Positions 6,301 through 57,784 of a DNA stretch of 64,000 nt are shown one piece after another (position 1 is the stretch's first letter; every line of letters starts with the position of its first letter). The notes beneath the pieces are model-generated. The model made no database searches. It was not told the origin of the DNA and saw only the letters and a program-made list of their open reading frames with translations. Made by a program: the position numbers and the translations under genes. This stretch comes from Cladopsammia gracilis (lineage: Eukaryota; Cnidaria; Anthozoa; Scleractinia; Dendrophylliidae). The stretch spans positions 753,001 through 817,000 of the forward strand of contig JAJGOT010000193.1 in NCBI GenBank assembly GCA_022457155.1, written 5' to 3'.

Positions 6301-9300
6301 GGAGGGGTGGCGAATGGTAAATCCGAGACTCGCCGAGATGCCGAGACTCTTGTTTCAAAATCCGAGACCGCGACCGCAGCTATGTTATAAAATCCAAGCC
6401 CGAGACCCAATGTGGGAAAAAACTGAGCCCGAGACTCAGTGCTAAAAATATCCGAATCACCTATCAACAACAAACGAGGATGGAGAATGAGAATGCTTGA
6501 CAAAAGTAGCTGAGACTCCGAGACCTCGAGGAAAAAAATCCGAGACTCCGGGACAGAAAAAGCACCAGCTAAACGAGACTTCGAGACTTAAAACAAAAAC
6601 TGCCGAGATTTCGAGACTGGACCAAAATTTTCCGAGACCCACGATTTTGAAGGTACCATTCACCACCCCTATAGGGGAGGGGAGGGTATTGGCAGCAATT
6701 TCTATTATAGTTATAATAATAAAAAGGGATGGAAAATGGATGGTGCCATCTGGCTAAATTAAAGGAGGCAAGAGTGAAGGAAATAGCAAATGGGAGGGGT
6801 ATTTTTTATTCCTCTTCCTTGTTGATTATTTCATTACCATTTTAATTTGCTCAATTCATCAGGTGGCTAATCTCGCTTGTTCGATGTCTGTGAACCCTGA
6901 GAAGGTGAAGATGGTAAGACTAGCAGCCAAACGACTGCAAAATCTGTGCCCTCAGGTGATCAACGCAGCTCGTACTCTTGCTGCACGGCCCCACAGCAAA
7001 GTGGCTCGTGAAAACATGGATGTTTTTAAGGAAGCTTGGGAAAAACAACTGCAAGTACTCACTGAAGCTGTTGATGATATCACCAGCATTGATGAATTTC
7101 TTGCCACAACAGGTGGGTTGTTGCAAAGCAGCATTCTGGTTTCTTATTTGATAAACTTTGAAATTTGTGCAAAAGAACTTTGTTGTTTGTATTAAGAGTG
7201 GTGTGAATCATGATCATTTACTGTCTCTTTAGTTGCATTTTCAATACAAAAGATTTTATAAATGATTTGATTATTTCCCAACAGAGGCTCATATTTTGGA
7301 AGATGTGGACAAATGTGTGCAAGCTCTCCAAGACAGAGATCCAGAGACAGTGGACAGGACCGCTGGACAGATCCGAGGACGCACGGCAAGACTTGAAGAT
7401 GTCGTCGGTGCAGAAATGGAGAACTACCAACAAGGACCGTACACAGATAATGTCATGAGAGCAGTCTTGGTTATGCGCAATGAGAGTGAGTTTTCTTCTT
7501 GTCCTGGGCTAAGTCATACCCAACCTACATGTATTATGTGGTTGTCAAGCTTAACTTTAAAAATAGGCTAGATTGTAGATTTATTATGACGAAACCGAGC
7601 AATCACAGCAGAAAAAGATATACCTAACTTCTTGGTAAAAATCTATTTTCAGTTCATTTTGATAATCCAACAAAAGAAACCAGCTCTGATGCCTTGCATG
7701 GAGTGACCAGGAGAATAACCAACCTCCCTTCCTCCACACCTGGGCGGAGAGAGAAAATGTGAAACAAAGTCCCTTGTCTAAAGAAACAACATGATTACAC
7801 AGATCAACCCACTGCAAGAAATTACCGCACCTGCAGAGAACTAAATTCTTTTTTCTTATCCATTTTAGTTGTCCCACACTTTGCTCAGAATGTGGAGAGA
7901 TCAGTGACGACTCTTACTAGAGATCCCCATGGAGAAGTAGATGAAGCGCAGTTTATTGATGCTTCTAAACTGGTAAGTTTAAATGTTGTACTTGATGTTG
8001 CAAGCTTTAAACTTGTAATCTTTTGTTCCATGTATCTATCCCTTTGTTTAGAAATATATTGATCAAATTATGTGTATTGTTTTTAGGTGTATTCAGGCAT
8101 CAGAGATATTAGAAAAGCTGTTCTTGCTGGAAAAGTAAGTTCATTTTACAACGGAAATAATTAGGAACAAGAGGCTCCAAGCAGCCTATACTCATGCGCA
8201 TGCATAGAAAGTTTTATGATATATTTTAAACATGATAAGAAGATGTCTCACATGGAGAAGAGTTACTCCTTTCATTCAGTCATCGTTCCTGCAAAACACG
8301 TTGTTTACTATTGAATGTTTTGTAGATGAAGACTGTACCACAATGAAGCCAGTGATTCGTCTTAAGTCTTATATATACCTAATGTGAACATTAGTAATGT
8401 AAGTAGGGTTGTAGGAGACGCTGTCGTGACACTTCAGTAACGCTGTTTTACCGGAAGTGAGAGTACCCGGAAGTCACTAAACAGGAAGTGTAAATGGCAA
8501 AGCTATGAACCGGAAGTGCACAATTTAAAATATGCGTGCATAAATTTGCATGCAAAATCGTGCCGCTATATCACACGCATGAGTAATAAGGAATAAAAAA
8601 CAGCTGACTAGCTGACTTGAAAAAGCTGGGTTGTTGAGCTGTACAGAGGGAGGAGGGGAGTGAGAAATGTAAAAAAATTTCATGCTTATGCTGTGTGACT
8701 AGCTCATTATTGGTGACCTTTCAGGGGAAAACATACACTAGCACTCGACTGTTAAACTGTCTATTAAGCATTTAACTGTTTGGAAAGTGTTTAGATGGTT
8801 GTTAAGGCCTGGCGCACGCTACTGGTGTACATGGCTAAAATTCACACTTAATTTAGCTCTTCTGAAATTATTAAAATTCAGTTTAGGTTGAGATTTGGTA
8901 AAAAAAACTAAAGTTCATTAATGTCTTCCCTGTGAACAATTTTAGTTTTGCATAAAGGGTTGAATAAAACAGAAAATTTTACAATAGTCACCAAAAATGA
9001 GGCCATTTTGGACACTACGCGTAACATTTACAGTCTAACCTGGCACAATTCATAATTTCTCCGCTTTGATGATATGTAGGCATTTTTTCTTTTGCAATTA
9101 AAGTTAATAGCTAATGAGCATTATGTATTTTAAGAATGACTTTAAACGATCGAAAAATAACAAATTTATAGCAATTTGCAGCAAGGTAACCTAATATTAC
9201 GTACCTACAAAAACAACCTGGTCGAAAATTTTCAAAATCGATTTGGTTTTAGCTCCGTTTCTTATGTTAAAAAACAAAAAGACTTTTGAAGTGCTCATAA

Positions 9301-12300
9301 GTTCAGCTTATTTCCTGGGCTAACAATTTTGCAATTTGGAAAATGCATACTCAAACTACAATCCAATTTTCACGGTTAGACTGCGTTTATTTTACATAAA
9401 ATACGTTTCGTTGTACGTTGGATCGAAATACGGATTCTACAGTGTGCCTTGGCACGAACAAGTTGTGCATAAAGTGTGCCCAAGTTGTGCATGAAGTGTG
9501 CATGTCTAGCTTTTTTTCATGCCTAAGCTGTACCTAAGCAGTGCCTAAGCTGTGCCTAAGTTGTGCCTAAATTGTGCCTTAATTCGGGCCTAAATTGTGC
9601 CTTTGAACGGCGTTATGTAAATATTCCCGGGAAACATTATTTTCATCTTGCTCGTGTCACAGCGCTTTTTGGTCACACATTGTTATGACGATAAATTGTA
9701 AGATTGTTCTCATGCAACGAATTATTTTTTCTCCAAGTGAAAGCGACGGCGGGAAATCAGTAATCGTGTTTACTTGTATTCTTCCCGCACTGCCGCTTTC
9801 CCAGCCGTTTGGAGATGTAGAATAGTACTTGTATTTAATACAGATGTAGTTTCTGACCATTCGGTCATCGGCTTTGAATAATACTGCCAAACATTCAAAA
9901 AGTTGTTCGAACAAATTGACGTTTTGGAGTTTTATCATTCGATTTGGATTTATAAAACGGAATGGGTCATTTTATTCATCGGATGAGCTGTCTGGTGTTT
10001 TCACAAGTTGGTCAAATTTCAGCAATAAATTAGCATAACCTGATGTCAAAGATTGGCGTGTTTATTGACAAAAGGATCTGTCTCCAAAAAGAATCAGTGC
10101 ACCAGTTGAGTAACAATGATTACAAAGCGGAAAACAACGCTAATTTCGAATTGTTAAAACAGAAAGATAGAATTATATCACGTTTTCTTCAAATATTTAA
10201 GTTCACGACGCATTTTATACCAAACAATCTTTGTTTAAGCGACACTTTGCAACACTTTGTATTTTCGGCAGGAAAGTTCACCGGTGTTTCGTTTCGTTTC
10301 AGCGAAATTTCTAAAAATTGTAAAGTATTAAACTCTGTGGACCGAACGAATAATTTGAACGACTTTCCTAACGCTTTCAACGCGTCAACGGCCTGGAAAA
10401 AAGTTTTGTACGCTTTTTTTATAAACGCTTCAAACGGCATGGATGAAAATTCGAACGGTTTTTCCAACGCTTCTAATGCTTTCCTAAACCATTTTAACGC
10501 AGTTTCCGAACTGCGATCAAACGCTTTTAGGCCGCTTAACAGATAACTGTTTAGTGAAAGTTTTCCCGTGGAAGGTCACATTTATCATGTTTTATTATTA
10601 TGTCTTGCTGTTGTCGCTCAATTCTCGTTTGTTTGTCTTGCTCGTGTCAGCCAAATTATTACTATGACTTGTCGCTTTCGATTCTCGCTGATAACCATAT
10701 TTTTTACGGACTGAATCTGGTTGGTCACTCGCCGAGAATTTTCGTACGGCTTGCCTTCGGACGAGTTAAATATAACGTTTCCGAAAAACGTGCCTAAATG
10801 GGCGTAAACTGTGCCTAAGCTGTGCCTAAACTGTGCCTAAGCATTCTGTAAAACGTGCCGAACCTGTGCCTAGTCTGTGCCTTTTATGTTTTTTTTTCTC
10901 GTGTGCTTTTGCGTGAAATCCGTGCCTTTCACAGAACGTGAATTGGTGCATAAGCACGGTGTTACGCTCGTGTACACAAGTAGCGTGCGCCAGGCCCAAT
11001 GCTGTAGGGTTCAGGCTGCATTAATATTGGGCCAACGATGTAAGGCTCTGGCTACATTAATATTGGGCCAATGAAGTAGGGCTCTGGCTACCTGAATATT
11101 GGGCCAATGAAGCTGGACTCTGGCTACATTAATATTGGACCAATGATGTAGGTCTCTGGCTGCATTAATATTGGGCCAATGAAGTTGCGCTCTGGCTATA
11201 TTAATATTGGGCCAATGATGTAGGGCTCTGGCTACATTAATATTGGGCCAATGATGTTGGGCTCTGGCTTCATTAATATTGGGCCAATGATGTAGGCCTC
11301 TCGCTGCATTAATATTGGGCCAATGAAGTTGGGCTCTGGCTATATTAATATTGGGCCAATGATGTAGGGCTCTGGCTACATTAATATTGGGGCAATGAAG
11401 CTGGGCTCTGCTACATTAATACTGGGCCAATGATGTTGGGCTCTGGCTACATTAATATTGGGCCAATGATGCAGGGCTTTGCGTACCTGAATATTGGGCC
11501 AATGAAGTTGGGCTTCGGCCACATTAATATTGGGCCAATGATGTAGGGCTCTGGCTACATTAATATTGGGGCAATGAAGTTGGGCTCTGGCTACATTAAT
11601 ATTGGGCCACTGATGTTGGGCTCTGGCTTCATTGATATTGGGTCAATGATGTAGGCCTCTCGTTGCATTAATATTGGGCCAATGAAGTTGGGCTCTGGCT
11701 ATATTAATATTGGGCCAATGATGTAGGGCTCTGGCTACATTAATTTTGGGCCAATGAAGTTGGGCTTCGGCCACATTAATATTGGGCCAATGATGTAGGG
11801 CTCTGGCTACATTAATATTGGGGCAATGAAGCTGGGCTCTGCTACATTAATACTGGGCCAATGAAGTTGGGCTCTGGCTACATTAATATTGGGCCAATGA
11901 TGTAGGGCTTTGCCTACCTGAATATTGGGCCAATGAAGTTGGGCTTCGGCCACATTAATATTGGGCCAATGATGTAGGGCTCTGGCTACATTAATATTGG
12001 GGCAATGAAGCTGGGCTCTGCTACATTAATACTGGGCCAATGAAGTTGGGCTCTGGCTACATTAATATTGGGCCAATGATGTAGGGTTTTGCCTACCTGA
12101 ATATTGGGCCAATGAAGTTGGGCTTCGGCCACATTAATATTGGGCCAATGATGTAGGGCTCTGGCTACATTAATATTGGGGCAATGAAGCTGGGCTCTGC
12201 TACATTAATACTGGGCCAATGAAGTTGGGCTCTGGCTACATTAATATTGGGCCAATGATGTAGGGCTTTGCCTACCTGAATATTGGGCCAATGATGTTGG

Positions 12301-15300
12301 GCTTCGGCCACATTAATATTTGGCCAATGATGTAGGTCTCTCGCTGCATTAATATTGGGCCAATGAAGTTGGGCTCTGGCTACATTAACATTGGCCCAAG
12401 GGCCTGGCGCACGCTACTGGTGTACATGGCTAAAATTCACACTTAATTTAGCTCTTCTGAAATTATTAAAATTCAGTTTAGGTTGAGATTTGGTAAAAAA
12501 ACTAAAGTTCATTAATGTCTTCTCTGGGAACAATTTTAGTGTTGCATATAGGGTTGAATAAAAGAAAATTTTACAATAGTCACCAAAAATGAGGCCATTT
12601 TGGACACTACGCGTAACATTTACAGTCTAACGTGGCACAATTCATAATTTCTCCGCTTTGATGATATGTAGGCATTTTTTCTTTTGCAATTAAAGTTAAT
12701 AGCTAATGAGCATTATGTATTTTAAGAATGACTTTAAATGATCGAAAAATAACAAATTTATAGCAATTTGCAGCAAGGTAACCTAATATTACGTACCTAC
12801 AAAAACAACCTGGTCGAAAATTTTCAAAATCGATTTGGTTTTAGCTCCGTTTCTTATGTTAAAAAACGAAAAGACTTTTGAAGTGCTCATAAGTTAGCTT
12901 ATTTTCTGGGGTAACAATTTTCAATTTGGAAAATCCATTTTCAAACTACAATCCAATTTTCACGGTTAGACAGCGTTTATTTTACATAAAAATACGTTTC
13001 GTTGTACGTAGGATCGAATTACGGATTCTACAGTGTGCCCAAGTTGTGCATGAAGTGTGCATGTCTAGCTTTTTTTCACGCCTAAGCTGTTCCTAAGCAG
13101 TGCCTAAGCTGTGCCTAAGTTGTGCCTAAATTCGGGCCTAAATTGTGCTTTTGAACGGCGTTATGAAAATATTCATTATTTTCATCTTGCTCGTGTCACA
13201 GCGCTTTTTGGTCACACATTGTTATGACGATAAATTGCAAGATTGTTCTCATGCAACGAATTATTTTTTCTCCAAGTGAAAGCGACGGCGGGAAATCAGT
13301 AATCGTGTTTACTTGTATTCTTCCCGCACTGCCGCTTTCCCAGCCGTTTGGAGATGTAGAATAGTACTTGTATTTAATACAGATGTAGTTTCTGACCATT
13401 CGGTCATCGGCTTTGGATAATACTGCCAAACATTCAAAAAGTTGTTCGAACAAATTGACGTTTTGGAGTTTTATCATTCGATTTGGATTTATAAAACGGA
13501 ATGGGTCATTTTATTCATCGGATGAGCTGTCTGGTGTTTTCACAAGTTGGTCAAATTTCAGCAATAAATTAGCATAACCTGATGTCAAAGATTTGCGTGT
13601 TTATTGACAAAAGGATCTGTCTCCAAAAAGAATCAGTGCACCAGTTGAGTAACAATGATTACAAAGCGGAAAACAACGCTAATTTCGAATTGTTAAAACA
13701 GAAAGATAGAATTATATCACGTTTTCTTCAAATATTTAAGTTCACGACGCATTTTATACCAAACAATCTTTGTTTAAGCGACACTTTGCAACACTTTGTA
13801 TTTTCGGCAGGAAAGTTCACCGGTGTTTCGTTTCGTTTCAGCGAAATTTCTAAAAATTCGCTTCTTTTTTTTAAATTTGCTTTGCGAATTTTCGTGTGCG
13901 AGTTATCATGAGAACGATGCGAAAGTACTCTCGAAATGTCGGCGATATTTTGTCGAATATTCACGAGAACAAAGAACGAAGAAGTCAAATCAAACTACAG
14001 AGAAGGTAAGCCTTAAAACTGCTGTTTAAATGTTTTGTTCAAACGACTTTTGTAAAGTATTAAACTCTGTGGTCCGAAAGAATAATTTGAACGACTTTCC
14101 TAACGCTTTCAACGCGTCAAAGGCCTGGAAAAAAGTTTTGTACGCTTTTTTTTATAAACGCTTCAAACGGCATGGATGAAAATTCGAACGGGTTTTTCCA
14201 ACGCTTCTAATGCTTTCCTAAACCATTTTAACGCAGTTTCCGAACTGCGATCAAACGCTTTTAGGCCGTTTAACAGTACGTTTTCCCGTGGAAGGTCACA
14301 TTAATCATGTTTTATTATTATTATGTCTTGCTGTTATCGCTCAATTCTCGTTTGTTTGTCTTGCGCGTGTCAGCCGAATTATTACTATGACTTGTCACTT
14401 TCGATTCTCGCTGATAACCGTATTTTTTTACGGACTGAATCTGGTTGGTCACTCGCCGAGAATTTTCGTACGGCTTGCCTTCGGACGAGTTAAATATAAC
14501 GTTTCCGAAAAACGTGCCTAAATGGGCGTAAACTGTGCCTAAGCTGTGCCTAAACTGTGCCTAAGCATTCTGTAAAACGTGCCGAAGCTGTGCCTAGTCT
14601 GTGCCTAACTTGTGCCTTTTATGTTTTTTTTCTCGTGTGCTTTTGCGTGAAATCCGTGCCTTTCACAGAACGTGAATTGGTGCATAAGCACGGTGTTACG
14701 CTCGTGTACACCAGTAGCGTGCGCCAGGCCTTAAGAGATGGAACCTATACTTCTGCTCATGTATTTAAGTGGCAAAAGTCTACAGTTTCCACCCATATGG
14801 GAGGCTAGACAGCTTTAAAGCGATTGCGGATGTGCGTGCTTGGTCCTGCTTGTTTAGGTTGGCGATCAAGCTGTGTACAACTTCTTGTTTTTAAGTACAA
14901 ACACTGAGATTGTGATTGTGGGTAGCCATTCATAGTTAATCCTTACATTGACCAAAACATCCTGAGTTAATGTCTCCAGGCCTCTTGTTATTTATGTCCT
15001 TTGCATTCACCTTTTATCAGATACGTGACTCTGGAGGAATTCTAGAAGAGCTTGCGATGGAGGATGCAGCAGCAGAGCTTTTTGCCGAGGCTCAGGCACG
15101 CGCCCGAGAACAAGCTGCTTATGAACAACTCAAAGCTAGTGGTATGTGTTACCAAGCATATCTGGTCCATGACATTAGGTTTGAATGAAGGTTTAAATTT
15201 TGCATGTTCTGTGCTTTTCTACCATATTAAAGACCTGCACAATTTTATGGAGAAAACTTACATGTAAAAGGCATGTTCCAAGGGAAACACAACTTGTTTC

Positions 15301-18300
15301 TCTACAGAATCTTTAAGACTTTAGGCACATCTAGTGTACAGTACACCTATTTTACTTATACACCAAAACCAAAAAGGATGGTCAATCAGTGGTTTGGGAA
15401 TTACTTGTAAAGGAAGATACATGCAGTCAAGTTTCTCCTTTCTGACACCTTGATAATACTGCATTATAGACAGCTCATCTGAGTCCAATGAGACCAAAAT
15501 TCTTATAGCCTTTGGTGTCTGTATTAAAGAGGAACTTAGCTTGACTTTTGCTGATGCAAAAAGTGTTTTATTTTGTTAAATATTCAGTTAAATTTAACCC
15601 TTCAACTTCTAAGAGTGCTAAAATGCAAAATTCAAGAAAAATCCTAAATTTCATTTTATAAAGTATTGAAAAACAAAATTAATGGAACCTGTAATGTCTA
15701 GTCCAGTCCATTCCTGTATGTTTATAGCTTGCGCATGCATGATACATTGCTTACGCCATCGCATGTGTAGTTTGGTTTTTGGTTGCATTAAAACTATGGT
15801 TTTACACATTCAGACTGGTTGTTTCAGCGCCACACAAATGTATTCACTGTTGCTAAAAAAGTTTCATTTGGCTGGCCGCACCATAGGATTTTGTTGGCAG
15901 AATCAAAAGTTAGAACTACATTTCATAATTCATAATTGACTCTTCAGAAAACTGTAAACTTCAAAACCTAGAAAACTTCATAATTGACTCTGGGAGCGAA
16001 AGGGTTAAGTATAGTTTAATAAACGAGCAGGAGTGCTTTATCAAGTTTAAAACACGAGGCGCAGCCGAGTGTTTTAGACTTGATAAAGCACGAAGTGCGA
16101 GTTTATTAAACGGCTTCAAAAACTTCTGATGTAGATCTATTCATTCTTGCACTAATATTTGGATTTTGGGTTATTTTGGGCAAGAAAATTGAACGCAAAA
16201 TTTAGCCGTGTCTACATCAGATATAAAGACACACTCATTAAACATTAATTTCCTTTGTATTTTCTTTATGAATTATTAATGAGTTTTTGAACAAACAATA
16301 GTAAAGCCTGAATGTTTCAGGGGTTTTTGTTGTGAAATTAAGAAAGAGAAAAAAGGGGTGTTTCTTGGTGTTGTGGATGGTGTGATCACCAAATGACGTA
16401 AAACAAAAGGTTCAAAAGACACTGAACAATACCCACAACAATGGCTTCCTCAACACCAAGAAACACCCAAAAAAAGGGGAACTCATGATCAGACGGTGGT
16501 GTTTGGTGTTGTTGGTGCTGAGTGATCTGGCCGTCAAGCACTTGCCCATAAAAAATAAGGAAATGAATTCATTTTATTTTGTAGGTAAGGTTCAGTTTGA
16601 AGTGCGTGCTGATGGAGGTGAAGATGAAGGGGGTATGGGTGTGGCCTCTATCAAGGTGAATGGCGTGGAACACTGCCCCAGGAAGGTAGGGCACAATGTT
16701 GTGGTTCTTGATCCAACTGGTGACGTTGTTGCGGCTGAAAATTTCAACACAAATTCTGGGGAGGGTCCTGCTTTGGGACAGTTCCTGGATCAGCTTCCTG
16801 AGGATCATGTTGTTCTTGTGGCTACCCAAGGAGTTAATGGCAGAGAGCAAGGTGAGTGTTGCTTAAAGTGCCTATGTTCAAGACAGGAAATAGTAAAATG
16901 CCCAATAATAAACAGTACCACGTGAGAATACTGGTCAAAAGCTTTCATTCGAATGGTCACACTTATGGTTTCATCCACAGACTCAAAAGTTAGAACCACC
17001 TTGAACAGCATAATAAACAGCACCACAGAAAAGTACTGCTGAATTTAATTACCACATGTAGCTGTCATTTGAATGGTCACACACTGTGTGACACCTTGGC
17101 ATTTCCCACATAGACTCAAAACCTAGAACCACCTCGTATATAATGCAGTAAACAGCGTCACAGGAAAGTACTGCTCGATAGCTTCTGTTGGAATGGTCAC
17201 ACTTTGGGATTTCATCCACAGACTCACAAATTAGAACCACCTTGTACAGCATAATAAACAGCATCACAGTAAAGTACTTTTTACTAGTTTTCATTTTGGG
17301 ATTTCACCAACGCACTCAAAAGTCAACCACCATGTCTGCATAATAATGCATCAGTCAATTGAAACCCCGGCCCCCCGACCCCCGGGACATAGCGGGAGAT
17401 AGCCGGGATTTAACGCGGCAAATGCCGGGATTTAACGCATATTTAACGACGTGTTGGCCCCGGGGGGCCGTGGAATTAACAAAATGTCTGTGTGACCGGG
17501 GTCACTGAGCGGGGATTTAACATGAAGGACTAAAGGAAAAGCCTCGTTTTCCAAAATGGCGGCGGAGGAGAGAGAGTTGCATGCGTTTTAATTCATTGTA
17601 TTGAGGCGTATTCACATGGACTTCATATGTACATTATAGATGGTTGTTAGTACTAAAATTGTGCATTTGGATAATGCAGTGCAGTGTTGTACACGCACGC
17701 ATACCGCGCATACAGGGTAATTCAAAGAAAGCTAGTTCAACAGGCTTCTTATAAATTTTTTCGATACGCTAATAAACTTTGGAGTCTTTCAATACCTTTC
17801 ATGTTACAATCATGTTACCTAAAGTATTCAATGGCTTACTTAATTATCAATGAAACGGCATATTTTGTTGCTCTAGTTAAAGAATGCAAATTTTGCATGT
17901 GCTATAAATCAAGTTATCAAGTTGAAGAAAGTATTCTTTTGTCAATACTCTTCATTACTTGATTAACTTTCAAGATTGAACTTGTTTGAAAAGTAGAAAA
18001 AACTATATTAAACTTAATTTGTAAAAACGTTTAACCCAACCAGAATACTTATACCGTAAATCCTCTATTAAGCCCCCCTTTTTGGAGCAAGAAATTCATT
18101 AAGCCCCCCCCCCCCCCCGTTTTTAGCCTCGCCCCCTTCTTTTTCCTTCACAACCAGACAATCAAAAATATAACGGCTGACTGTATAACCGGTACATCTG
18201 TACCGTTCCAATCCGGGCACGCATCGGCGTGCCGGAAAAATTTTGTCGGGGGGCTAAACTTAATTTGCCCGAATGAAACTCGCGACGTCATGTTTATTTG

Positions 18301-21300
18301 TCATGATGATGATTCTAGCACTCGCTGACATTTTACTTTTCTACCACTGTGAACGATGCGAGAATTAGCTTCTACATCTCGCATTCTTCGCACTTCACAC
18401 GGTACCGATAAGATATATTTTACGAGACTTCGACGAAGAGTTCTACGAAGACACCAACCACTGGGCACGAATTCATATACACGGTACTCGGGAGCTTTGG
18501 AGAAAATATAACCGGTATAGTTGTACTAAAAATGAGCATTATTATGGTAATCAATGAGTGGTGAACAGCCTGTATTTCGCTAAATGGTAATAAGCCCCGC
18601 ACTATCTGTTAACGCCTCCTCCCCCTCAAAACACTTGAAATCAATAAGCCCCCCGGGGGGCTTAAAAGAGGATTTACGGTATACCATGCAAAGAAATACA
18701 CACACTTTTGCCATGAAGTTGAATAAAAGTAGTTACAAGAGTTCCCATTATCAGGCACGTGAGTTTTAATTTAAATAATTAAATCGGCCTTGTTTTATGA
18801 GACGTTTGAGATTCGCACACCAGGATCGTATTAGAATGTAGTCACTGAGGAACGTCTATCAGTCCCGTGTCCTAAGTGCGGAATTACTAAAAGCGTCTTT
18901 ATTAAAATACGCCTATCGTATTTTTCACGTGAAAATGAACTAATTTTATATATGAGGTCAAATTTCACTGAATTTCACTGTTGCCCAACTTCCCTTTTTG
19001 TCGAGCTTATTTTTGGGTGGGCTTTTTTTTGGTTGGAAATATTCGTTAAAAAAATCAATAGGGCTATTTTCGGGTGGCATTTTGTTTCTTAAAATTTTGC
19101 GAGCCATTTGCGGTCATTGAATTTTCTGAATATGCAATCAATAACAAATTTTTGTTTAATCTTTCAAATAATACCCGCAAGTCCTGACAGAAATGCCATT
19201 GCTGTAAAGACACAAGTTGATCAAGGCGATTGCAAGAGAAATACTGTCGTGGGGCATATTCCTAAACCACTTGCCCGAATTTTAAGTCCCAATGATCAAG
19301 GACAAAACCATAACTTATATACAGGCAAAAAGAGGTGAAAGCAGGTGAAAATGCGGAGCACCAGGGGGAGTGTCGGTTCAAATCGGTGGCATTGAACTGC
19401 CTTGCAAGTTCTATCGTGTTTAAATAAAGGATCTCAGTGTAGAAAATATAAGTAAAATCTGCAAAGGACTGCAAACGATGATGCTGCTAACGGTATACGT
19501 AGGATACATGTTTGCGAGAGACCTAAACAGCCAAAAAATAAACAAACATTAACATACAGTGAACTGCAGGGCTGATCTGACTACGTAAGAAAGTAATCTT
19601 TGTGAGACACCATCACTATAGAAACCGTTAAAGTAGTATCGCAACCGTGGACATTTGTTTTGTTGTTATTGCAACTCATCAGCACGGTGAAGCGATCTTA
19701 CGCAGATCCTACGTATACCGTAGCAGCATTATTGTTTGCGGTCCTTTGCAGATTTTACTTTTATTTTCTATATATTTTGGGACGTACGTATTTACAGATC
19801 TGATATGCTCTCAGTTTTCTTTTCAGGCATGGTTTTACCCATGCGTTTAAATGTTCAGATCGGCTTTGTCCATCTTTGAGTGACATCTTTGCGACTCTAT
19901 GGGCTCCTTGTTTCCCGGAACATGTAAAGGCAACGTACGCGTGATTCGGGTAACAAGTGAGTACACTGCGGGTCATTGTGTAATCTATTTGTGTTAGCAT
20001 TCTTGCTAACATCATTTAGTTCATCGCTGCACCGTGCTGATGAGTTGCAATAACAACGAAACTGCTGTCCACGATTGCGATCCTACTTTATCTGCTTTCA
20101 ATTTTGTATTGGTACTGTCGTGATGGTGTCTCCCAAAGATTAATTTTTACGTAGTCAAATCAGCCCTGCAGTTCATTGTATGTTACTATATACTAAATTT
20201 TAAACGGCCAAAAGGAAAACATACCAAGAGTGAGAAGAGAAATTCGAAAAGGACAGTAAACTTATAAACACTGGTGATTCTCTTTTGTGTTGATGATAAT
20301 TAAAAGCAACGCCCAAGTTGAACATAACTCCTTTATAATGTATTTTCAGGTCAATTCTTAAAACACTCCCATGGGCTTGTATTCGGGGGGGGGGGGGGGG
20401 GGGGGGGGGGCTTATTATTGGAAGGAATTTTTCGTTATAAATTAGGGGGGCTTATTTTCGGAGGTTTACGGTATATAGTTTGACGATTGGAACGAGTCCG
20501 GCTGAGACCAGCAAACCAAATCGAGTTGTGTTTATTTTGTTCTGAAGTACAAATGCCGCGCTATGCGGGGCTTTTAACAAACTACTTGACCCCGGGGGCG
20601 GGGGAATTAGCGGGGGTTTAACACCAAACAAATGTTAAATTCCCCGCTAGGTCCCGGGGGTCGGGGGGCCGGGGTTTCAATTGACTGATGCATAAACAGG
20701 TTTGAATGGTCACACTTTAGGATTTCATCCACAGACACAAAAGTTAGAACTGCCTTCTACAGCATAATAAACAGCACCACAGGACAGTGCTGCTCAGTAG
20801 CTTTCATTTGAATGGTCACACTTTAGGATTTCATCCACAGACTCAAAAGTTAGAACCACCTTGTACGGCATAGTAAACAGCACCACAGGACAGTACTGCT
20901 CAGTAGCTTTCATTTGAATGGTCACACTTTAGAATTTCATCCACAGACACAAAAGTTAGAACCACCTTGTACAGCATAATAAACAGCACCACAGAAAAAG
21001 TACTGCTCAATAGCTGTAATTTGAGTGGTCACACTTACGATTTCTCAAAAGTAAGAAACACCTTTTGCAGCATAATAAACAGTACCACAAGAAAGTACTT
21101 CAAAATAGCTTTTGATGGAGTGGCTTTACTTGGATTCCAAAGTTAGAATCACATCACCTATATCTGTTGATATATTTGAGGCTTACTACACTCACGTCAC
21201 TGGCTTCACTTGTTTTTCAGGTAATAATGTTGGCGCAGCTGCCCCAGCACTAGAGCGCCTGGGAGCTGAGGGACCATTCGACCCAGGTTACCATGGTTCA

Positions 21301-24300
21301 TATGCTTTCTCTGGCTGCACTGGTCCCACACCGAGATTTTACACCAAAGCAGAGATACGACCAAGATATCACGGCCCAGCAATCGTTGCTCAGCTGATTC
21401 CCACGCCAGCTGCTCAGAAAGGTTCGTGTTAGTAGTGCAAAGAAGCACATACAGGCATTATCATACATTATTCATCACTTCACGGATACAATACTAGCAG
21501 TAATCACAGATTATGGAGATTTCCGGCGGAAATGAGCCCCTGAAAAAAAACAATAGGGGCGGCCATTTGGAAGACCGTCTACCAAAAAATCTCAAATTTG
21601 ACTCCAACACGAAGTTAGGATTGCGTTCTTCGAACGCGATAACTCACAATTGACCAAGCTCCCATCTGGCCTTGTAGCTCAGTGGTAGAGCGTTTGCACT
21701 GGAATTGCAAAGGTCATGATGAGACTCATGGGTCTCAAATTGCAACACCTTCAGTTGCAGCTCTTACAAGGTCTTCTGATTTGCTGAGAAAACAATAGAA
21801 CAAACAACACAACAATGGACCCCAGCCCTGAAAACAATAGAGCTGCGTGATACCCAGGTCCGGTGAAATTAGAGGTTGTTAAGAGCTGTGTGGTATCTGG
21901 AAATTTCACTTGATCGACATGTAATGGTCACCAGACTTACACATTGGGACAGTGTTGGAGGGAGGGGAGAGTGGGGAGTTGGACGCGGTGGGTGGGGGAT
22001 CGGTGAAGAGAAACGTCTAAGAGAGGGGAGGGGAGGGTGTGAAGGTTTCGTAGGCCAGCTTTTGAGCCTTTGATTTACCACTGTGAACTCTTATTTATTT
22101 GTTTGCTCACAGAAGCACATTATAGTACTCAACTATCTTCATAGATGGAATCTAGTATTGGACAAGTACATTTATACGTTATGTAAAGTTCCTTGTGACT
22201 ATATCTTGGCAGGTTTGGTGAAAGTTGCTATAGTTGCTGAAGGAGAAGATGATCCAAAAGCAACAGGCCGAACATCCATCAAAATCAACGGCATCGAGAG
22301 ATCTCCAATGATGCGAGGACACAACATAGTCGTCCTGGATAGTGATAGAAACTTCATCATGGCAACGAACTTTGACACAGCTGATTCATCCAAGGGGGAG
22401 GGGGTGAAGATGGCCAAATTTTTACAGCAGCTTCCACAGGAGAGGATAGTGTTGATTGGTACTCAAGGGAGCACCGGTAAGTACTAAAGTTTAATGGGGA
22501 TGGGGTAAGAATGGCCAAATTCTTTCTGCAGCTTCCTCGGGACAGAATAGTGTTGATTGGTACTTAGGGGTCCACCCGTACTAAAATTTAAGGGGGACGG
22601 GGTGAAGATATACAAACTTTACTAAGCAGGCCACTGTTACCATATTTATTTGATAGCGCATTAATTAATTTGTTTACCTCTTTAGGTTCAATGAGAGTTT
22701 TCGATTGTGCTTATGATTCCATCGCTTACCATCTTGTGAAAACAAGATTGTCTGAGTCTAAAGCAGAAATATGTACTCGGAGGGTATGGGAATGGGCATT
22801 GTGTTCGGTTTATCCTTCCGCTTGTGCTTGCAACTCCAACAATCTTGTTTTCACTCGATCATAAACGACGGAGTCATTAGTGAAATCGGAAGAAAATGGA
22901 AACCTTCTTATTCTTGCGACTCCAATTCTGTTGGGCTACCGACTCCATTATTTTATTTTCACTAGGTTGTAAGCGCCGTTACGACTTCCATAGACTGCGA
23001 GCAGTCTCTTATTTTTCTTTAAATCAGTCGAGCGCGATCGATCCGAGAATGGCGTGACATACGAGCCGCGAGGAACGAGGGCAGCAATTTGCATAATTAC
23101 AAGTGTACGCTCTCTCTCGCGCGTGGCACTGAGGAGAAAAGGGCGACAGCTCGCGGTCTACGACTTCCATGACAACTCCGACTCTGACCCCATCGCTTTT
23201 GAAAACCAGCCTTTAGAACTCACACTGAAATCTTGTTTTGTAGGCACATCAGTTAATGACGCCAAGGCCGCCCTTTATGACATAGGTGCATCAGGGAATG
23301 TCCATCCTGGGTTCCATGGATCGTGGGCCTTTGTAGGTTACACAGGTCCTGAACAATTCAAATGGGCCAAGGTCATCAGCCAACCACGGTACAAGGGACC
23401 TGCTGTTATTGAGGAGATGATAACCAGTCCTTCAGCAGAGGCAGAAATAAGTAAGTTATTTACCAGTTGGATATTAACCAGTCCTCACAGTGTTCCGTGA
23501 AGGGGGACGCAAACCTAATCTTTTGTTTGGTGTCCTGTGTCATCAAGGGCCTTTTCTCGGCTTGAAACTGGAATATACTTTTGCCTCGCTTTCATGAAGC
23601 CTGTCGGCCTTCCTTTCATGTTAGAATAATGTAGGGTCTTGCATGCTAAATCTTTTGTGTCGTGTTCTGTGTATGAGATTTTTGTGGAATTTCGCCGGGT
23701 AATCCTTTATCAAAGTATTTTTAATTTGCAGGTCAGGGTTTTTCTGCAACCTTCTCGCCTTTGTTGAAGAATAGCCATGTTGTTGTAGCCTGTTTACAGC
23801 CGCCCTCTACCCTCAAGAAAAATCATAAAGGGGGTGGCTGCACACGTGTCAAGAGCGAACTAAGCGGCCACATAATTCACCTCGTGAAACTTGTTTGTAA
23901 CTTGTTTTCTTTTTTTATCAGTCTGATATAAGTCAAAGGCAATACGAGACAGAAATAACGCGTTGTACATTGTAATGTTTTGCCGAGGTGGAGACTTGAG
24001 AATTCATTGTGTTTTTACTTTGTCTACAGCTGCCATGAATGCCAATGAGTCCGAGTATGAACCAGTGTCTGATTATGAATGGGAAGGAGCACAGTCTGAT
24101 TATGAGGCCCGATCAGAGTTTGAAGACACTGATGACTGGGATAAGGATAAGAGCATGTCCAAGAGAAGTGCCAGGGTATGATTTGGTCTTAGAGCGGTTT
24201 CCAGTTGAGTGTCGTAAAACCAAATCCAAAGTATGATTACTCTGACCAATCACAACACACGCAGGCAATCTAACAAACCAATCAGAACGCGAAACAAATA

Positions 24301-27300
24301 CGTGTAGCCGGCGCCAAGCGCGGGAAAACACGTGCAGGCAAGTCACGATTGGCTTTGGTTTTACCTCTGGTTGAGAAAGTGCCCAATTACAAAGCGTACT
24401 GAGCAATGTAAAACCAAAGCAATCGCGAAGTTACTTTCAACACTCAATTGAAAACCGCTCTATTTTGCTCTAATAATTAAACTTCTCTACGAGAGGTAAC
24501 ATAATAGAAAATTGAGCTGGCTGGACTTTATATAGCGGATTATCAATGTCCAGAATTAGCTTTGTTTCACTTTTGTATGCTTACCATGTTGTTTCTTGTA
24601 GTGCTCTAGAAAAGGGTTCAAGTTTTAATCTGGCATTGAACGTAAAAGGCAGTTCCAACCCGTTTGACCAGCAAAATATTCTTAAATGTCTAAACTAACT
24701 ATATTTAACCCTTCTACTTCAAAGAAACTTGTACTGGGACCTTACATTTTTAGTAGAACTCTAATTAAAAGCTCCCGAAAGTGACCGCGACTATCTGTGG
24801 GATTTTTTTAACTGGGCCTTTCCTGCAATTTTAAACTTTTGTAAGGTTGAAAAGCAGCAGTTGCTTAAAAGACTGAAGTTTATAAAAAGAAAAAGAAAAC
24901 GTTCATTTTCTCGATGAGTGCACTGTAGAGTCATTATATTTGCGCCGTTAGGGCAGTTTCCAATTGAGTGTCGTAAAACCAAAGCCTAAATAGAGCAGTT
25001 TTCAATTGAGTGTCGTAAAACCAAAACCAAAGTAATTACTCTGACCAATCATAGCAGTCGTAAACAATCCAATGAACCAATCAGAGCTCGAAGCAATATA
25101 CATGTCGGCAGCGCCAAGCGCGGGAAAACGCGTGCGAGCAAGTCACGATTGGTTTTGGTTTTACTTCTGATTGGTCGAGAAAGTGGCGGGAGATTTTTTA
25201 GCCAATCACAAAGCGTAGCAATGCAAAACCAAAGCAATTGTGTAATTACTTTCGACACTCGATTGAAAACTGCTCTAATCACTCTGACCAATCACAACAG
25301 ACGCAGACAATTCAATGAACCAACCAGAACTCAAAGCAAATACATATCGCCAGCGCCAAGCGCGGGAAAAAACGTGCAAAGAAGTCACGATTGGGTTTGG
25401 TTTCGCTTCTGATTGGTTGAAAAAGTGGCGCGAGATTTTTTATCCAATCACAAAGCGTAGCAATGCAAAATGAAAACCGCTCTATCAGAAAAACGATGCA
25501 CGTAATCCCTTTGACATGTTGATCAACTTGTGACCAGCTTTAGTTACAACCATGTTAATTCCCGATTGAATTCTTTGCTCCATCAGTCACTCATGAGAGC
25601 TTTACCAGCGGAAGAAAAACTAAAGATTGAGCAGCTGACCGAAGGACTAAAGCAAGAGAAGAGAATGCTGGAGAGAGAGTTGACCAAGTGGGATGAGAGC
25701 GGAAATGATATCATCATCCTTGCAAAGAAGATGTGTATGATGATGATGGAAATGTCTGACTTCACAAGGTTAGGCTTGATTTGTCGTTACTTGACCCTTT
25801 AACTTTTAGAGTCAATAATGGAAACATATAGTGATGTTCTAACTTTTGAGTTTGTTGACGAAATCCTGCAGTGTGACTATTCAAATGAAACCTCTTCGTC
25901 AGTAGTTTTGCATGGTACCATTTGTTCTAACTTTTGAGTCTGTGGATGAAATCCTATGGTGTGACCATTTAAATGAAATCTCTTCGGCAGTACTTTTGCA
26001 TGGTTCCATTTCTACTTCAATATTTTACAAAATGAAATTTGGATTTTTTCGTGAATTTTGATTTCTGGCACTCTTGGGAGGGGGCTATATCATGGAGATT
26101 TGGCGTGTTTGGGTCAAAACTGCCTTTGCTTATAGAACACCAAGAGGAAGATATCATGTGACTTTTCAAAGGGAGAACAAACCACAATCAATTTTTAGCC
26201 TTCTGAAGGGTAAAGTGACAGATTTGCGGCAAAATTTAGGAAGACTGCAGGGAGGGGATTTGTCTCGAATAAGGAAAAATAAACACATAAAAAGTTTTTA
26301 AACATTCTCATCTTTGCTTCTGATTCTGATCATAGGGGAACTGGACCTTTGAAAACAACAATGGATGTTATTGACGCAGCCAAGGTATGCCTCTTAATCC
26401 ATGTTAATCCATGTTAGTCCATGTTAGTTCATGGTAGGCCTTGTTAGACCATGTTATTCCATGTTAATCCATGTTAGTCCTTGTTAATCCATGTTAGAGC
26501 GATTTTCGTATGACCTTGAAAAACGGTTTTCCTGACTGTTGGCGATTTGTTTGCTCGTTTTCCCGCTAAAATATCCCTAATTTGGAAAGAGGCTTGTTCG
26601 ATTGACCCATCAGACGACGGAAGTAGCCTGCGTAGTAGGCGTCGAAGAAAGGGGAACTTTTCGCGCCCCCTTCCCCCTCCCTTTTTACGCCTGCCACGCA
26701 GACTAGACGGAAGGGACAGAAGCGGAATCAAAAAAGTTATGATCTATTGGAAATCACTAAACTCACGGAATCAGAAGCCGGTCCTCAGCTTCAGAGTCTT
26801 GAAAGTGAATAGTTTGTTGTCAGTTGATTTTGTTTGACAACAGGTTCGATCCATTTATAATTGTTGCTTTCTCTCTTATTTCAGAGGATTGCAAAGGCTG
26901 GAGCAAAGATGAACCAAAAAGCTTCAGAAATTGCATCGAGGGTGAGCTCGGATTATTTTTTTGCTTTCATATCAGTAACCTGGAGCTAATTGTTGGTTTC
27001 ACTCCACAAGCTAAGTATATCTGAAGAGCTTGACTCAAGCGCACTTAAGATTCTCAAGTAACATTTCAGAAAATTGGGTTTTTCACACCTGATAAGAAAC
27101 TGTTTTACTTGCTTCTGTTTTCTCACTGGTCAAGTGCCTTCTCAAGCTTGCCGTATTGTGAAACCACCAAATATTGACGAATGCGAAAAATCTTGCGGGA
27201 TTGTTGTTTTCAATGGCTTATTCTAGTGCTTTTATGGTTTTATGGTTTTATGGTATTCTTTTTGTGACAAATACAAAAGTGTGAAAGTCTAAAACGTTTG

Positions 27301-29038
27301 AAATGTTTCCATGATTTGTGTCTTTGAATAGTGTCCTGATTCAAGCTCCAAGAATGACCTGATGGCGTACATACAGCGTATTGCACTCTATTCTCACCAG
27401 CTAACTATCACGGCGCGAGTGAAAGCTGATGTACAGATGATAAGTGGTGAACTTGTCGTGTCTGGGGTAAGTCGTTCTTTGGTTAGCTTACGAGCAGCCA
27501 CTCTTTTCTTTCATGCAGAAATAGTCAAGTAGAAGCGAAGCGTGCAAGCGCGCGAGAGAGTCGCTTGCCGAGTGGTCTCTCTTGAGCGGTTGAAACACGC
27601 AGGCGACCGCGCGAGTCGCGATACGCGGGCGAACGTAACAAATCACCTGCATGCCATGAGAAGTTGCGAATGTCAAACACGTTTTTCGAGAGATAACTCG
27701 TAGTTGCCAAGGGGCGTTTCTTTCGGACCTTAACTTAAAGTCTGCATCTTTTATTCTGTAGTATGATTTCGGAAGAAGTATTGTTTTATAGCAAAGCTAG
27801 CAAACAAACGGCATGATGTCAACTTAATTCATGCTCTGTGTAATTTTTCCTTAGTTGGACAGTGCTACCTCCCTGATTACAGCTGCCAAGAATCTTATGA
27901 ATGCCGTTATTTCAACTGTCAAAGCTTCTTATGTTGCCAATACCAAGGTACGGTAAATTATCAGAGCTCGGCTTTAATGTGCACATTGATAATAGACGCC
28001 GAACTGGGCTGGTTGAAGCTAGCAAACAGTTGAAAGTGAACCTGTTCACAGGCTCATTATACTTCTTATTTTTAATCTTGGCCTCCTAACAGTCGCCAAA
28101 TTTCGGTTTGTAAAGTATTGAAGAGCTTAACTTCTGGATTTACGTCTGATTGGTAGAGAAAGTGGCGCGAGATATTTTAGCCAATCAATCAAATCGTTGT
28201 TAAAAAGAAGTACGAAGTGGTAATGTAAATGTGTCTTCAAGTTATTTCAGTAATGCGATAATGCTTATGCAAGCAATAATTTTACTTTTTCTTTTCTGAT
28301 TTTTTATCTGTTCGTCTCTTTACAGCACAAGTCTGGGGAAGCCAGGGTAAGAATCTATTAAAATAATTATTACAAAAACCATAATTATTTTAGTTACTAT
28401 TTGTAATCTGAACACGTCACGTGAAAACCACCGTTGTCCAGTATACTGTCTGTAAAGCAGCCTTATGTTCCGTACGATCCGCAGATACATAACCTAATGG
28501 GACAGTTTATGAGCAGTGTTGTGTTCATTTCATTCTATTTCGTTTTCCTTGAGTGTTTGGAAAAGGCACTCTATGACTTATGACGTGGGAGGGAAAATTT
28601 TACATGAGGCATAGAGCGGAAGAGACCTTGTGGAGATTGCCACGTTGCTGAAGGAGAGGAGGGTGGGAAAAAACCCGTGATGCTCAGATGATTCAGTGTC
28701 GAAATAAAAGAGGACGAAGTCGCCTGACATAACCTTAAAAAGATGGGAAAACTCCCCAGAGGTTCCGTGACAGGGCGTGACGCACGTGTAGTGAGTTCTA
28801 GCAGTGAAATCGAATAACTAAGATATTTTCGTTAAAAGGTGCTTTTCTCTTTGAAATCTAGACTGCCAGTATCACTTGGCGCATGCGTGCGCCGGAAAAG
28901 AAACCTCTCGTGAACCTCGAAAAAGATGACCGCGTACCACAACTACAGAGGGCAGAGAAAGTCAAGCAGGAGTCGCCGATACAAGCTCTTTCTGAATTCG
29001 ACACATCCGAAGTGAAACGACAACCAGATTTCTACTAG
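384..29038 (+). CDS. CTNNA: Alpha-catenin with two inserted ILEI/PANDER domains (5' partial)
   Basis: Alpha-catenin links cadherin-beta-catenin complexes to actin at cell junctions. I read 24 coding exons: 384-550, 1715-1834, 2722-2811, 3503-3676, 4140-4343, 5431-5520, 5930-6082, 6863-7112, 7285-7485, 7869-7972, 8087-8134, 15021-15141, 16585-16851, 21221-21421, 22213-22476, 23244-23450, 24030-24175, 25587-25768, 26336-26384, 26885-26941, 27332-27466, 27855-27947, 28326-28346, 28862-29038. They join into 1172 residues ending in TAG. Numbered from the first full codon, residues 1-183 are the N-domain side, and 184-251 hold the vinculin-binding helix (VRQALQDLLSEYM). Middle-domain bundles run to about 533, a charged helix covers 534-573, and two ILEI domains cover 574-886. 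An acidic linker follows to 935, then the actin-binding domain with DDSGNDII-like ESGNDIIILAKKM, LLAYLQRIALY-like LMAYIQRIALY and APEKKPLV. The intron after 6082 starts with GC, and 28326-28346 is a 21-base microexon. Family and exon assignment are firm; use of the ILEI exons in mRNA is inferred from frame and splice sites. Confidence 0.95.
1403..1588. mobile_element. Mariner-like MITE in alpha-catenin intron
   Basis: The left end reads CAGTCAAACCTGTATTA and the right end, reversed, CAGTCAAACCTCTATTAA. Both are flanked by TA (1401-1402, 1589-1590). The interior repeats the motif ctctattaag. CAGT ends with a TA target fit Tc1/mariner-type non-autonomous elements; related copies lie at 49809-49995 and 55139-55294. 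Confidence 0.7.
1835..3502. other. Alpha-catenin introns with dispersed repeat fragments
   Basis: Apart from the 2722-2811 exon, this stretch has no coding signal. At 2090-2440 the phrases ctcctgga, ctcccagat and ctcccggat recur, and similar wording returns near 40950-40985, so this looks like a dispersed repeat. The text around 1985-2070 (gtaatggtcac ... gttggagg) is matched at 21920-21990 in another intron. Confidence 0.5.
4386..4566. mobile_element. Foldback MITE, copy 1
   Basis: The termini AGACCCTATTCATAAATGGC and, reversed, AGACGCTATTCATAAATGGC are inverted. Nearly the whole element folds on itself: gctaatcagcccaactagcc near the left is matched by ggctagttgggctgattagc near the right. 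A second copy of almost equal length is at 57785-57966. The target duplication is not clear here. Confidence 0.75.
4956..5280. mobile_element. MITE with 6-bp target duplication, copy 1
   Basis: The ends are the perfect inverted repeat AGGGGTGGCGAATGGTA. It is flanked by the direct repeat AATGAT (4950-4955 and 5281-5286). The interior is made of short ccgagac subrepeats. A second copy at 6303-6670 has a different 6-bp flank, so the 6-bp duplication is a property of the family. Confidence 0.85.
5581..5866. mobile_element. Foldback element with arms of about 135 bp
   Basis: The left arm starting caattgaaggggtgagtgg is matched in reverse by ccactcacctcttcaattg on the right, and the match continues through tatgctcatgtaacaaaggg. 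The short loop lies near 5725. Flanking target duplication is not evident. It sits in the intron just before the exon at 5930. Confidence 0.75.
6083..6084 (+). other. GC splice donor (GC-AG intron) in alpha-catenin
   Basis: The exon ends GAAGAG and the intron begins GCATGT. Only this junction keeps the frame into the exon at 6863 (LEE then VANLACS, the conserved family order). The nearest GT, at 6087, would put a stop codon just inside the next exon. Confidence 0.85.
6303..6670. mobile_element. MITE with 6-bp target duplication, copy 2
   Basis: Same family as 4956-5280: it begins AGGGGTGGCGAATGGTA and ends taccattcaccacccct, with one change. It is flanked by ATAGGG (6297-6302 and 6671-6676). 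The interior carries extra ccgagactcc subrepeats, which explain its greater length. Confidence 0.85.
7640..7860 (-). mobile_element. Degraded SINE fragment
   Basis: The words ccacacctgggcggagagag and cccttgtctaaagaaacaac match the body of the tRNA-derived SINE at 48403-48700 in the same orientation. No intact promoter boxes are visible. It lies in the intron before the exon at 7869. Confidence 0.5.
8806..10996. repeat. Arm 1 of the composite element
   Basis: It starts and ends with the 26-bp inverted repeat; the right end has one mismatch (tgtacacaag). Near each end lie runs of an 11-12 bp unit, gtgcctaagct (about 9480-9600 and 10795-10890). An open frame at 10043-10546 has no recognisable domain and is disrupted in arm 2, so I do not call it a gene. 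Confidence 0.75.
10997..12400. repeat. 36-bp satellite array with a 179-bp higher-order unit
   Basis: About 39 tandem copies of a 36-bp unit, gggccaatgatgtagggctc followed by tggctacattaatatt, make up the whole stretch. In the right half a variant reading tgtagggctttgcctacctg (or gtttt in the second) recurs at 11901, 12080 and 12259. That is every 179 bp, or five monomers with one of 35 bp, which shows higher-order amplification. The copies have no unique spacers, so it is not a CRISPR-type array. Confidence 0.9.
12401..14730. repeat. Arm 2 of the composite element
   Basis: This is a direct copy of arm 1 with few differences over most of its length. It has about 193 bp (13859-14051) that arm 1 lacks, between the shared texts tctaaaaatt and gtaaagtatt. 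Its right terminus carries the outer TTAA flank. Confidence 0.75.
15142..16584 (+). other. Alpha-catenin intron with hairpin repeat
   Basis: At 16014-16111 an inverted repeat begins gtttaataaacgagcaggag, ends cgagtttattaaac and contains gctttatcaag on both arms. The rest holds no coding signal or recognised element. The intron separates the last middle-domain exon from the first ILEI exon. Confidence 0.5.
16890..17343 (+). repeat. 105-bp tandem repeat, first block
   Basis: About four copies of a unit of roughly 105 bp include the words gaatggtcacactt, atttcatccacagactc, aaaagttagaaccacc and agcataataaacagcacc. The array resumes at 20696 after the inserted element. The same family occurs at 25830-26010, 31860-32560, 50975-51235 and 56220-56310, on either strand. 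Confidence 0.85.
18054..18679. mobile_element. Nested MITE with CCGTAAATCC ends
   Basis: Termini CCGTAAATCCTCTATTAAGC and, reversed, CCGTAAATCCTCTTTTAAGC are inverted and flanked by TA (18052-18053, 18680-18681). A similar right end (gaggtttacggtata) recurs at 20461-20475 after a 26-base G run, so at least one related fragment lies in the same host element. Confidence 0.7.
19540..20190. repeat. Inverted repeat inside the PIF-like element
   Basis: The text around 19560-19690 (gaactgcagggctgat ... gcaactcatcagcacgg) recurs reversed at about 20030-20180 (ccgtgctgatgagttgc ... atcagccctgcagttc). Arms are about 150 bp with many changes. It may be a further nested element or the core of the host element. 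Confidence 0.6.
20385..20410 (+). repeat. 26-base G run
   Basis: An uninterrupted run of 26 G lies beside the fragment ending in ggtttacggtata. Such runs are prone to sequencing error, so its length is uncertain. Confidence 0.8.
20696..21115 (+). repeat. 105-bp tandem repeat, second block
   Basis: This continues the array interrupted at 17343, with about four more copies carrying atttcatccacag, agttagaaccacc and cataataaacagcacc. The first copy is joined to the right TAA flank of the 3.3-kb element. Confidence 0.85.
21668..21765 (+). mobile_element. tRNA-like SINE remnant
   Basis: The text ttgtagctcagtggtagagc is an A-box and D-arm of tRNA type, followed by an anticodon-stem-like ttgcactggaattgcaaagg. 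The expected B-box is broken by extra sequence, so this is a tRNA-derived repeat and not a functional tRNA gene. Confidence 0.5.
22493..22622 (+). pseudogene. Tandem partial copies of the ILEI-2 first exon
   Basis: The last part of exon 22213-22476 plus the start of its intron is repeated: 22493-22589 reads as MAKFFLQLPRDRIVLIGT and then a TAG stop, against MAKFLQQLPQERIVLIGT in the real exon. A third, shorter piece (gggggacggggtgaagat) begins at 22590. The spacing is about 100 bp. The donor is changed (cacccgtact for caccggtaag), so splicing from it is not expected. Confidence 0.85.
22640..23243. other. Intron between ILEI-2 exons with repeat-like sequence
   Basis: The stretch repeats phrases such as aacaagattgt / acaatcttgttttcac and gactccaa / cgactccat, with GC-rich wording unlike the surrounding introns. 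It is probably a degraded mobile element. I cannot place its ends. Confidence 0.4.
23451..24029 (+). other. Alpha-catenin intron, nothing recognised
   Basis: The sequence is unremarkable, with normal splice signals (gtaagt at the left, tctacag at the right). I see no inverted ends, tandem repeats or coding frame in it. Confidence 0.6.
24192..24460. mobile_element. MITE of GAGCGGTTTTC family, copy 1
   Basis: The inverted ends are GAGCGGTTTCCAGTTGAGTG at the left and, reversed, GAGCGGTTTTCAATTGAGTG at the right, flanked by TA (24190-24191 and 24461-24462). The interior holds ctgaccaatcac and gcgccaagcgcgggaaaa. Two more copies follow within 1 kb, and a worn one lies at 53545-53757. Confidence 0.8.
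24952..25482. mobile_element. Cluster of GAGCGGTTTTC-family MITEs
   Basis: A short end fragment (24952-24990) is followed by a full copy at 24993-25275 with TA flanks. A third copy (25278-25482) starts directly at the second copy's right end and lacks its own left terminus. Shared internal words include ctgaccaatcac, cgccaagcgcgggaaaa and gtcacgattgg. They lie in the intron before the exon at 25587. Confidence 0.8.
25830..26090 (-). repeat. Reverse-strand copies of the 105-bp repeat
   Basis: Two copies read ttctaacttttgag, tgatgaaatcct and gtgtgac, the reverse complement of the family at 16890. The text after it (gaattttgatttctggcactcttggg) is matched at 56355-56385, so the two loci share a longer segment. 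Confidence 0.7.
26395..26498 (+). repeat. 10-bp minisatellite
   Basis: About ten tandem copies of tccatgttag or tccatgttaa begin just after the donor of the exon at 26336-26384. Confidence 0.85.
28326..28346 (+). other. 21-base microexon of alpha-catenin
   Basis: It lies between tttacag and gtaagaa, encodes HKSGEAR and is phase 0 at both ends. It can be included or skipped without changing frame. It falls where the actin-binding domain meets the C-terminal tail. Confidence 0.75.
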
Positions 29039-42524: not shown

Positions 42525-53960
<11,436 letters not shown>

Positions 53961-57524: not shown

Positions 57525-57784
57525 GGCTGATTTACTTGTGATGGCTAGAAAATATACAAAGTAAATTATTCACATGCTAAGGTAAGATAAAGACAACAAA
57601 AGGTAATCTTAAACCATTACAAAGTATCTGCTACTGTCTGATGCCAAAAAGAACAAAGAAGAAGGTGTTAAAATGTTTAACTTGGGTTTTCAAATCAGGT
57701 TTCAAACTGTTGATATAAATAGCTTCTTTTAATTTTAGATGTATTATGTATAATTCCATCATTACAGATAATTCCATAATTTAT

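Follow-up and report, generated by a model that had tools for sequence, protein, structure and literature searches.

The window analysed here, a stretch of 64,000 nucleotides from the coral Cladopsammia gracilis (contig JAJGOT010000193.1, here C387, positions 753,001 to 817,000 of the forward strand), contains a gene for an alpha-catenin that carries two tandem ILEI domains between its middle (M) domain and its actin-binding domain (ABD). Judged from protein sequences, the same architecture is almost certainly present in four cnidarian groups. The gene lies on the + strand at 384-29038, where 24 exons join in one frame to encode 1172 residues up to the stop codon. Pfam profiles matched the window protein to Vinculin (PF01044, E 1.3e-264) and, in two stretches, to ILEI (PF15711, E 8.6e-31). 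Scored singly, the two ILEI domains reached 49.6 and 65.2 bits, both above the curated PF15711 cut-off of 27 bits. An alpha-catenin with tandem ILEI domains had been predicted from the letters of this stretch (the original prediction), and is borne out by the sequence itself, by homologues and models of them, and by the structure of the gene.

When the window protein was compared with the PDB using phmmer, residues 1-531 aligned with chain positions 108-637 of mouse alpha-E-catenin 4k1n (102-631 in the 906-residue chain 6upv_M, which lacks the 4k1n offset of 6), and residues 900-1162 aligned with positions 645-908. Residues 532-899, 368 in all, therefore form an insert between 4k1n chain positions 637 and 645. 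Residues 924-1162 also matched the ABD of alpha-N-catenin (4k1o, E 8.8e-84), which places an actin-binding domain at the C-terminus by sequence. Vinculin was rejected as the identity of the protein, because the match to catenin alpha-1 (E 2.2e-266) was far stronger than that to metavinculin (E 2.5e-48). On this evidence the gene is a coral alpha-catenin, for which beta-catenin binding, F-actin binding and force dependence would be expected from family membership.

The insert consists of a helical linker (exon 12, 15021-15141, residues 534-574), ILEI1 (first half in exon 13, 16585-16851; second half in exon 14, 21221-21421) and ILEI2 (exon 15, 22213-22476, and exon 16, 23244-23450), and next comes an acidic, weakly conserved linker before the ABD (exon 17, 24030-24175, residues 887-935). 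Exons 13 to 16 are all of phase 1-1. Joined together, exons 12 to 17 and the first ABD exon (25587-25768) formed a single open frame, and the 23 introns of the chain in the window comprise 22 of GT-AG type and one of GC-AG type, as expected from the predicted continuous frame with good splice sites. The predicted location of the ILEI exons between M-domain and ABD exons also held, except that exon 12 had been counted with the M domain: similarity to the M domain stops with exon 11, and exon 12 is the linker of the insert. In AlphaFold models of two homologues, P0006 and P0010, both ILEI domains adopt a fold of the FAM3/POMGNT1 type, in agreement with the profile matches, and the linker contains a helix leading into ILEI1 (residues 161-189 in P0010 and 462-489 in P0006).

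A search for proteins combining PF15711 with PF01044, which the original prediction had proposed, yielded 13 database proteins, from Stylophora, Orbicella, Actinia, Actinostola, Dendronephthya, Paramuricea, Hydractinia, Clytia and five others. We take the listed genera to be stony corals, sea anemones, octocorals and hydrozoans. Twelve of the proteins came from a protein search with residues 520-1000, which missed Clytia, and one more from a profile search, both scoring only the 8000 candidates that shared most words; a third protein search returned eight proteins and no new taxa. Nematostella, Hydra, jellyfish and sponges did not appear among the proteins retrieved. Two ILEI stretches were found in each of six fusion proteins that were rescanned. 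The Actinostola protein, P0007, has in addition a CBS-domain region (PF00571, PF25562) joined to its N-terminal side, probably through an error in the gene model.

Among the best 120 of 1694 relatives from the profile search, 12 had ILEI domains and 108 did not. A tree of the regions outside the insert, containing these 108 proteins, 11 fusion proteins (the partial P0006 and P0010 being left out) and the window protein, separated the cnidarian rows cleanly from the 108 with support 1.0; an earlier tree had used 50 of the 108. Going by their names, 68 of the ILEI-less proteins are presumably bilaterian, and the remaining 40 also fell outside the cnidarian group. The interval between the M domain and the ABD was 389-407 residues in 12 cnidarian rows, compared with a median of 42.5 (range 3-81) in the ILEI-less relatives.

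These data bear on whether the ILEI exons might belong to a nested gene or be normally spliced out. Their phases would permit skipping in frame, and the transcript support comes from relatives rather than from C. gracilis itself. However, the same fusion recurs in the 13 proteins, which come from several groups of cnidarians, and the 108 relatives among the best 120 that lack ILEI all fell outside the cnidarian group. Five of the fusion proteins (P0001, P0002, P0003, P0009 and P0011) are encoded on contigs of 4.0-5.1 kb, which have room for the coding sequence and are far below gene length. We infer that these contigs are transcripts, because they match the coding sequence in size yet are much shorter than the gene; they weigh against constant skipping of the ILEI exons, or their confinement to a separate transcript, in those relatives. 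A nested or discarded set of exons is thus very improbable, and the insertion is not an artefact of chance, splicing or assembly.

According to the part of PMC7588230 consulted, alpha-catenin under tension is believed to be stretched in the linker between the M domain and the ABD, with an effect on the start of the ABD; an insert at that site would therefore lie on the load path. Tension between beta-catenin and F-actin would pass through the linker helix, then through ILEI1 and ILEI2 in turn, and by way of the acidic linker to helices H0/H1 of the ABD. We favour a reading in which the ILEI pair is an in-line folded module on this path, setting the distance between the M domain and the ABD as a folded block and probably serving for docking in addition to spacing. 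A docking module on the load path is the more tentative part of this proposal, rather less likely than not; such a module would present a surface for proteins, instead of a glycan-binding site like those of POMGNT1 and FAM3C. Roles in spacing or in partner binding, as originally suggested, are each plausible.

The simpler possibility that the pair is a passive spacer or mechanical buffer, lengthening and stiffening the connection between the M domain and the ABD with no ligand, is appreciable, though we consider it the less likely account. It would fit the in-series position, the near-constant length of the interval in the cnidarian rows, and the appearance in the models of a rigid-looking pair between stretches of low confidence. 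Invariant columns made up 23% of ILEI1 and 25% of ILEI2, close to the 28% of the N-terminal and M (N/M) regions, compared with 15% and 2% in the linkers; together with the distinct sequences of ILEI1 and ILEI2, this is more than a spacer seems to need.

Several observations weigh against the docking-and-spacing reading. Identity to the window protein was lower in the ILEI domains than in N/M for stony corals (83-89 versus 92-95%), anemones (65-73 versus 76-77%) and hydrozoans (43-51 versus 50-58%), and was about equal only for octocorals. In most of these comparisons the ILEI domains thus evolve a little faster than N/M, as a passive spacer might, and their conservation may reflect upkeep of the fold alone. 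The ABD was modelled poorly in P0006 and P0010, with predicted template modelling (pTM) scores of 0.45 and 0.51, so that no arrangement of the domains could be read from the models. Since exons 13 to 16 share one phase, in-frame skipping could give rise to ILEI-less isoforms. Finally, we infer a cytosolic location because the frame begins with the N-terminus of an alpha-catenin; the first coding exon showed no hydrophobic leader by eye, and signal-peptide prediction formed no part of this assessment.

Glycan binding was among the functions first proposed for the pair. In the excerpts seen of PMC9802357, residues R129, D179 and R207 of POMGNT1 contact N-acetylglucosamine (GlcNAc) and are conserved in FAM3 proteins and Fam3L2. 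The triad was intact in the aligned POMGNT1, FAM3B, FAM3C and first TMEM2 segments. Among 26 catenin ILEI domains from 13 sequences (including the window protein and leaving out P0004), it was complete in one, ILEI1 of P0011. The corresponding coral residues are V/G/H in ILEI1 and R/G/H in ILEI2, so that neither domain has the GlcNAc-binding set. The incomplete triad in 25 of 26 domains, including both coral ones, argues against simple glycan binding; lectin function of that kind was set aside, and the original proposal is weakened. A cytosolic glycan reader, with a site for beta-linked GlcNAc (such as O-GlcNAc on junction proteins) in one ILEI domain or in both, is quite unlikely on these grounds. 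In its favour are the predicted fold, which is that of the GlcNAc-binding POMGNT1 stem, the complete triad of P0011 and the occurrence of O-GlcNAc in the cytosol. The excerpts of PMC9802357 also report carbohydrate binding by Fam3L2 and FAM3C.

Pairing of ILEI domains between molecules, which would cluster alpha-catenin, has a precedent in the mouse FAM3C structure 5lc4, described as an 'ILEI dimer'. The coral ILEI1 has two cysteines and ILEI2 none, which makes a disulfide-linked form like that of secreted proteins doubtful, and we regard self-association as unlikely. It is an equally speculative idea that the adherens-junction clutch of Cnidaria is ligand-gated, a cytosolic ligand on the ILEI pair altering how tension reaches the ABD; such a ligand might be a protein bearing O-GlcNAc, a metabolite lodged in the ILEI cavity or a peptide from a partner. 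If true, junctions would be controlled here in a way that has no counterpart in bilaterian alpha-catenins.

The coral protein differs from alpha-E- and alpha-N-catenin (CTNNA1/CTNNA2, PF01044) in the extra helix and two ILEI domains, whereas the N, M and actin-binding domains align throughout and the short acidic linker before the ABD is kept. FAM3A, FAM3B and FAM3C (PANDER/ILEI, PF15711) are secreted signalling molecules, but the coral ILEI domains are internal to an alpha-catenin, lack the sugar triad and have few cysteines; the coral protein does not look like a secreted protein made of an ILEI domain, as a FAM3 cytokine is. In POMGNT1, which is a glycosyltransferase, the triad serves the stem for GlcNAc binding; the coral domains keep at most R129 of it. 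A catenin ILEI profile (A3), built from 12 domains of 6 sequences, aligned over its positions 21-147 of 153 with a C-terminal stretch of TMEM2 (8c6i, chain positions 1147-1272), and over 34-120 with the GG domain of TMEM2. TMEM2 and CEMIP are extracellular, hyaluronan-related proteins; the portion of PMC10276149 that we saw says so, and names FAM3, POMGnT1, phage gp35 and TMEM2, and no catenin, as GG-domain proteins. Caenorhabditis elegans FAMP-1 likewise has two tandem FAM3-like domains in one protein, but after them comes a stretch that resembles part of the catalytic domain of POMGNT1, and the excerpts of PMC9802357 mention no vinculin-family domain.

In a tree of the catenin ILEI domains only, ILEI1 and ILEI2 split 13 to 13 with support 100/99. 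Each set contains anthozoan and hydrozoan members, so that, on the sequence evidence, the duplication behind the pair is older than the split between anthozoans and hydrozoans. When the tree was rooted with FAM3, POMGNT1 and TMEM2 segments, ILEI2 stayed one group (98/99) but ILEI1 did not: three hydrozoan-type ILEI1 domains fell outside a group of 23 rows (98/97), which counts against the simple picture, subject to the caveat of long branches. An intron splits both window ILEI domains at the same alignment column, in a glycine codon and in phase 1. Duplication of a two-exon cassette would leave this pattern, and the duplicated unit was apparently such a phase-1 cassette.

Related sequences elsewhere in the genome hint at exon shuffling from an ILEI gene of extracellular type as the source. 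An ILEI exon on contig C325, read by eye, also has phase 1-1 and similar ends, and is 35% identical to ILEI1 over 66 residues. Of nine other genomic ILEI places examined, one on C377 (L014) gave the best tblastn match, with 44% identity to ILEI2 across 108 residues; there is no intron at the glycine-codon position, the domain there ends with a stop codon, and it lies 2.7 kb downstream of a discoidin-like open reading frame (ORF) (F5/8 type C, E 1.1e-4, below the Pfam cut-off). Contig C514 carries six partial ILEI matches on one strand at 104941-285438, which probably represent a family of ILEI genes in tandem.

Textbooks present alpha-catenin as what connects cadherins to actin, and cnidarians commonly serve as an outgroup when the ancestral form of the animal junction is reconstructed. 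Should the two folded domains on the tension path prove general among cnidarian alpha-catenins, this outgroup would itself be a modified one, and any construct or model based on the vertebrate layout would omit roughly a quarter of the protein. In addition, a fold recorded in secreted and lumenal proteins and in a phage protein, that of ILEI, would occur in a protein expected to be cytosolic. The claim that no alpha-catenin of this form had been described stands in so far as we found no paper on ILEI in alpha-catenin; such proteins are already in public databases, mostly as 'catenin alpha-2-like'. A term search in PMC6067901 gave no match, and the Nematostella studies of Clarke et al. (2016, 2019; cited in PMC13245172), where a description is possible, lay outside the scope of the literature search.

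A scan of the C. gracilis genome (878 Mb, 1469 contigs) that scored best exon candidates only gave 17 PF01044 matches, on C387 (the window gene), C329 and C1260, with no second clear alpha-catenin among them. The gene on C329, 29-36% identical in two M-domain stretches and 40% over 40 residues of the ABD, is taken for a putative vinculin. That on C1260 (L029-L033) is a diverged alpha-catenin- or catulin-like gene, 22-76% identical over short stretches, and an ILEI query detected nothing in it.

Two further N-terminal coding exons were located by tblastn upstream of the window, on the + strand of C387 at 747067-747195 and 751278-751467, with ends read by eye. The start codon is at C387:747067, in the context GCCACCATG. 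These exons were 96% (45 residues) and 91% (67 residues) identical to the N-terminus of P0001, and the full protein of 1279 residues equals P0001 in length. They would supply the segment that binds beta-catenin in alpha-catenins. Within the window, exon 1 (384-550) encodes the end of the N-terminal region, exons 2-7 (1715-1834, 2722-2811, 3503-3676, 4140-4343, 5431-5520 and 5930-6082) the N and M domain, and exons 8-11 (6863-7112, 7285-7485, 7869-7972 and 8087-8134) the remainder of the M domain, all on the + strand. The rest of the ABD, the C-terminus and the stop follow exon 18 in exons 19-24 (26336-26384, 26885-26941, 27332-27466, 27855-27947, 28326-28346 and 28862-29038). The GC-AG intron is that after exon 7 (6083-6862), which gives exon 7 a GC donor. 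By eye, the Stylophora model P0004 lacks the segments of exons 7 and 11 relative to P0002; a gene finder perhaps missed both.

Intron 13 contains 51-nucleotide inverted repeats, 98% complementary and 3246 nucleotides apart (17346-20693), in what resembles a DNA transposon or a non-autonomous element, and a tandem repeat of about 106 bp (20701-21044) adjoins it. In intron 11, 39 copies of a 36-bp minisatellite span 10996-12399; its flanks (about 9.2-10.7 kb and 12.8-14.4 kb) encode near-identical ORFs and look duplicated by eye. Elsewhere in the window, an ORF that runs uninterrupted for 369 codons and resembles a fatty acid desaturase lies at 56463-57569 on the - strand (PF00487, E 1.3e-15), and an ORF at 50017-50316 on the + strand matches part of the Slu7 splicing factor (PF11708, E 1.5e-11).

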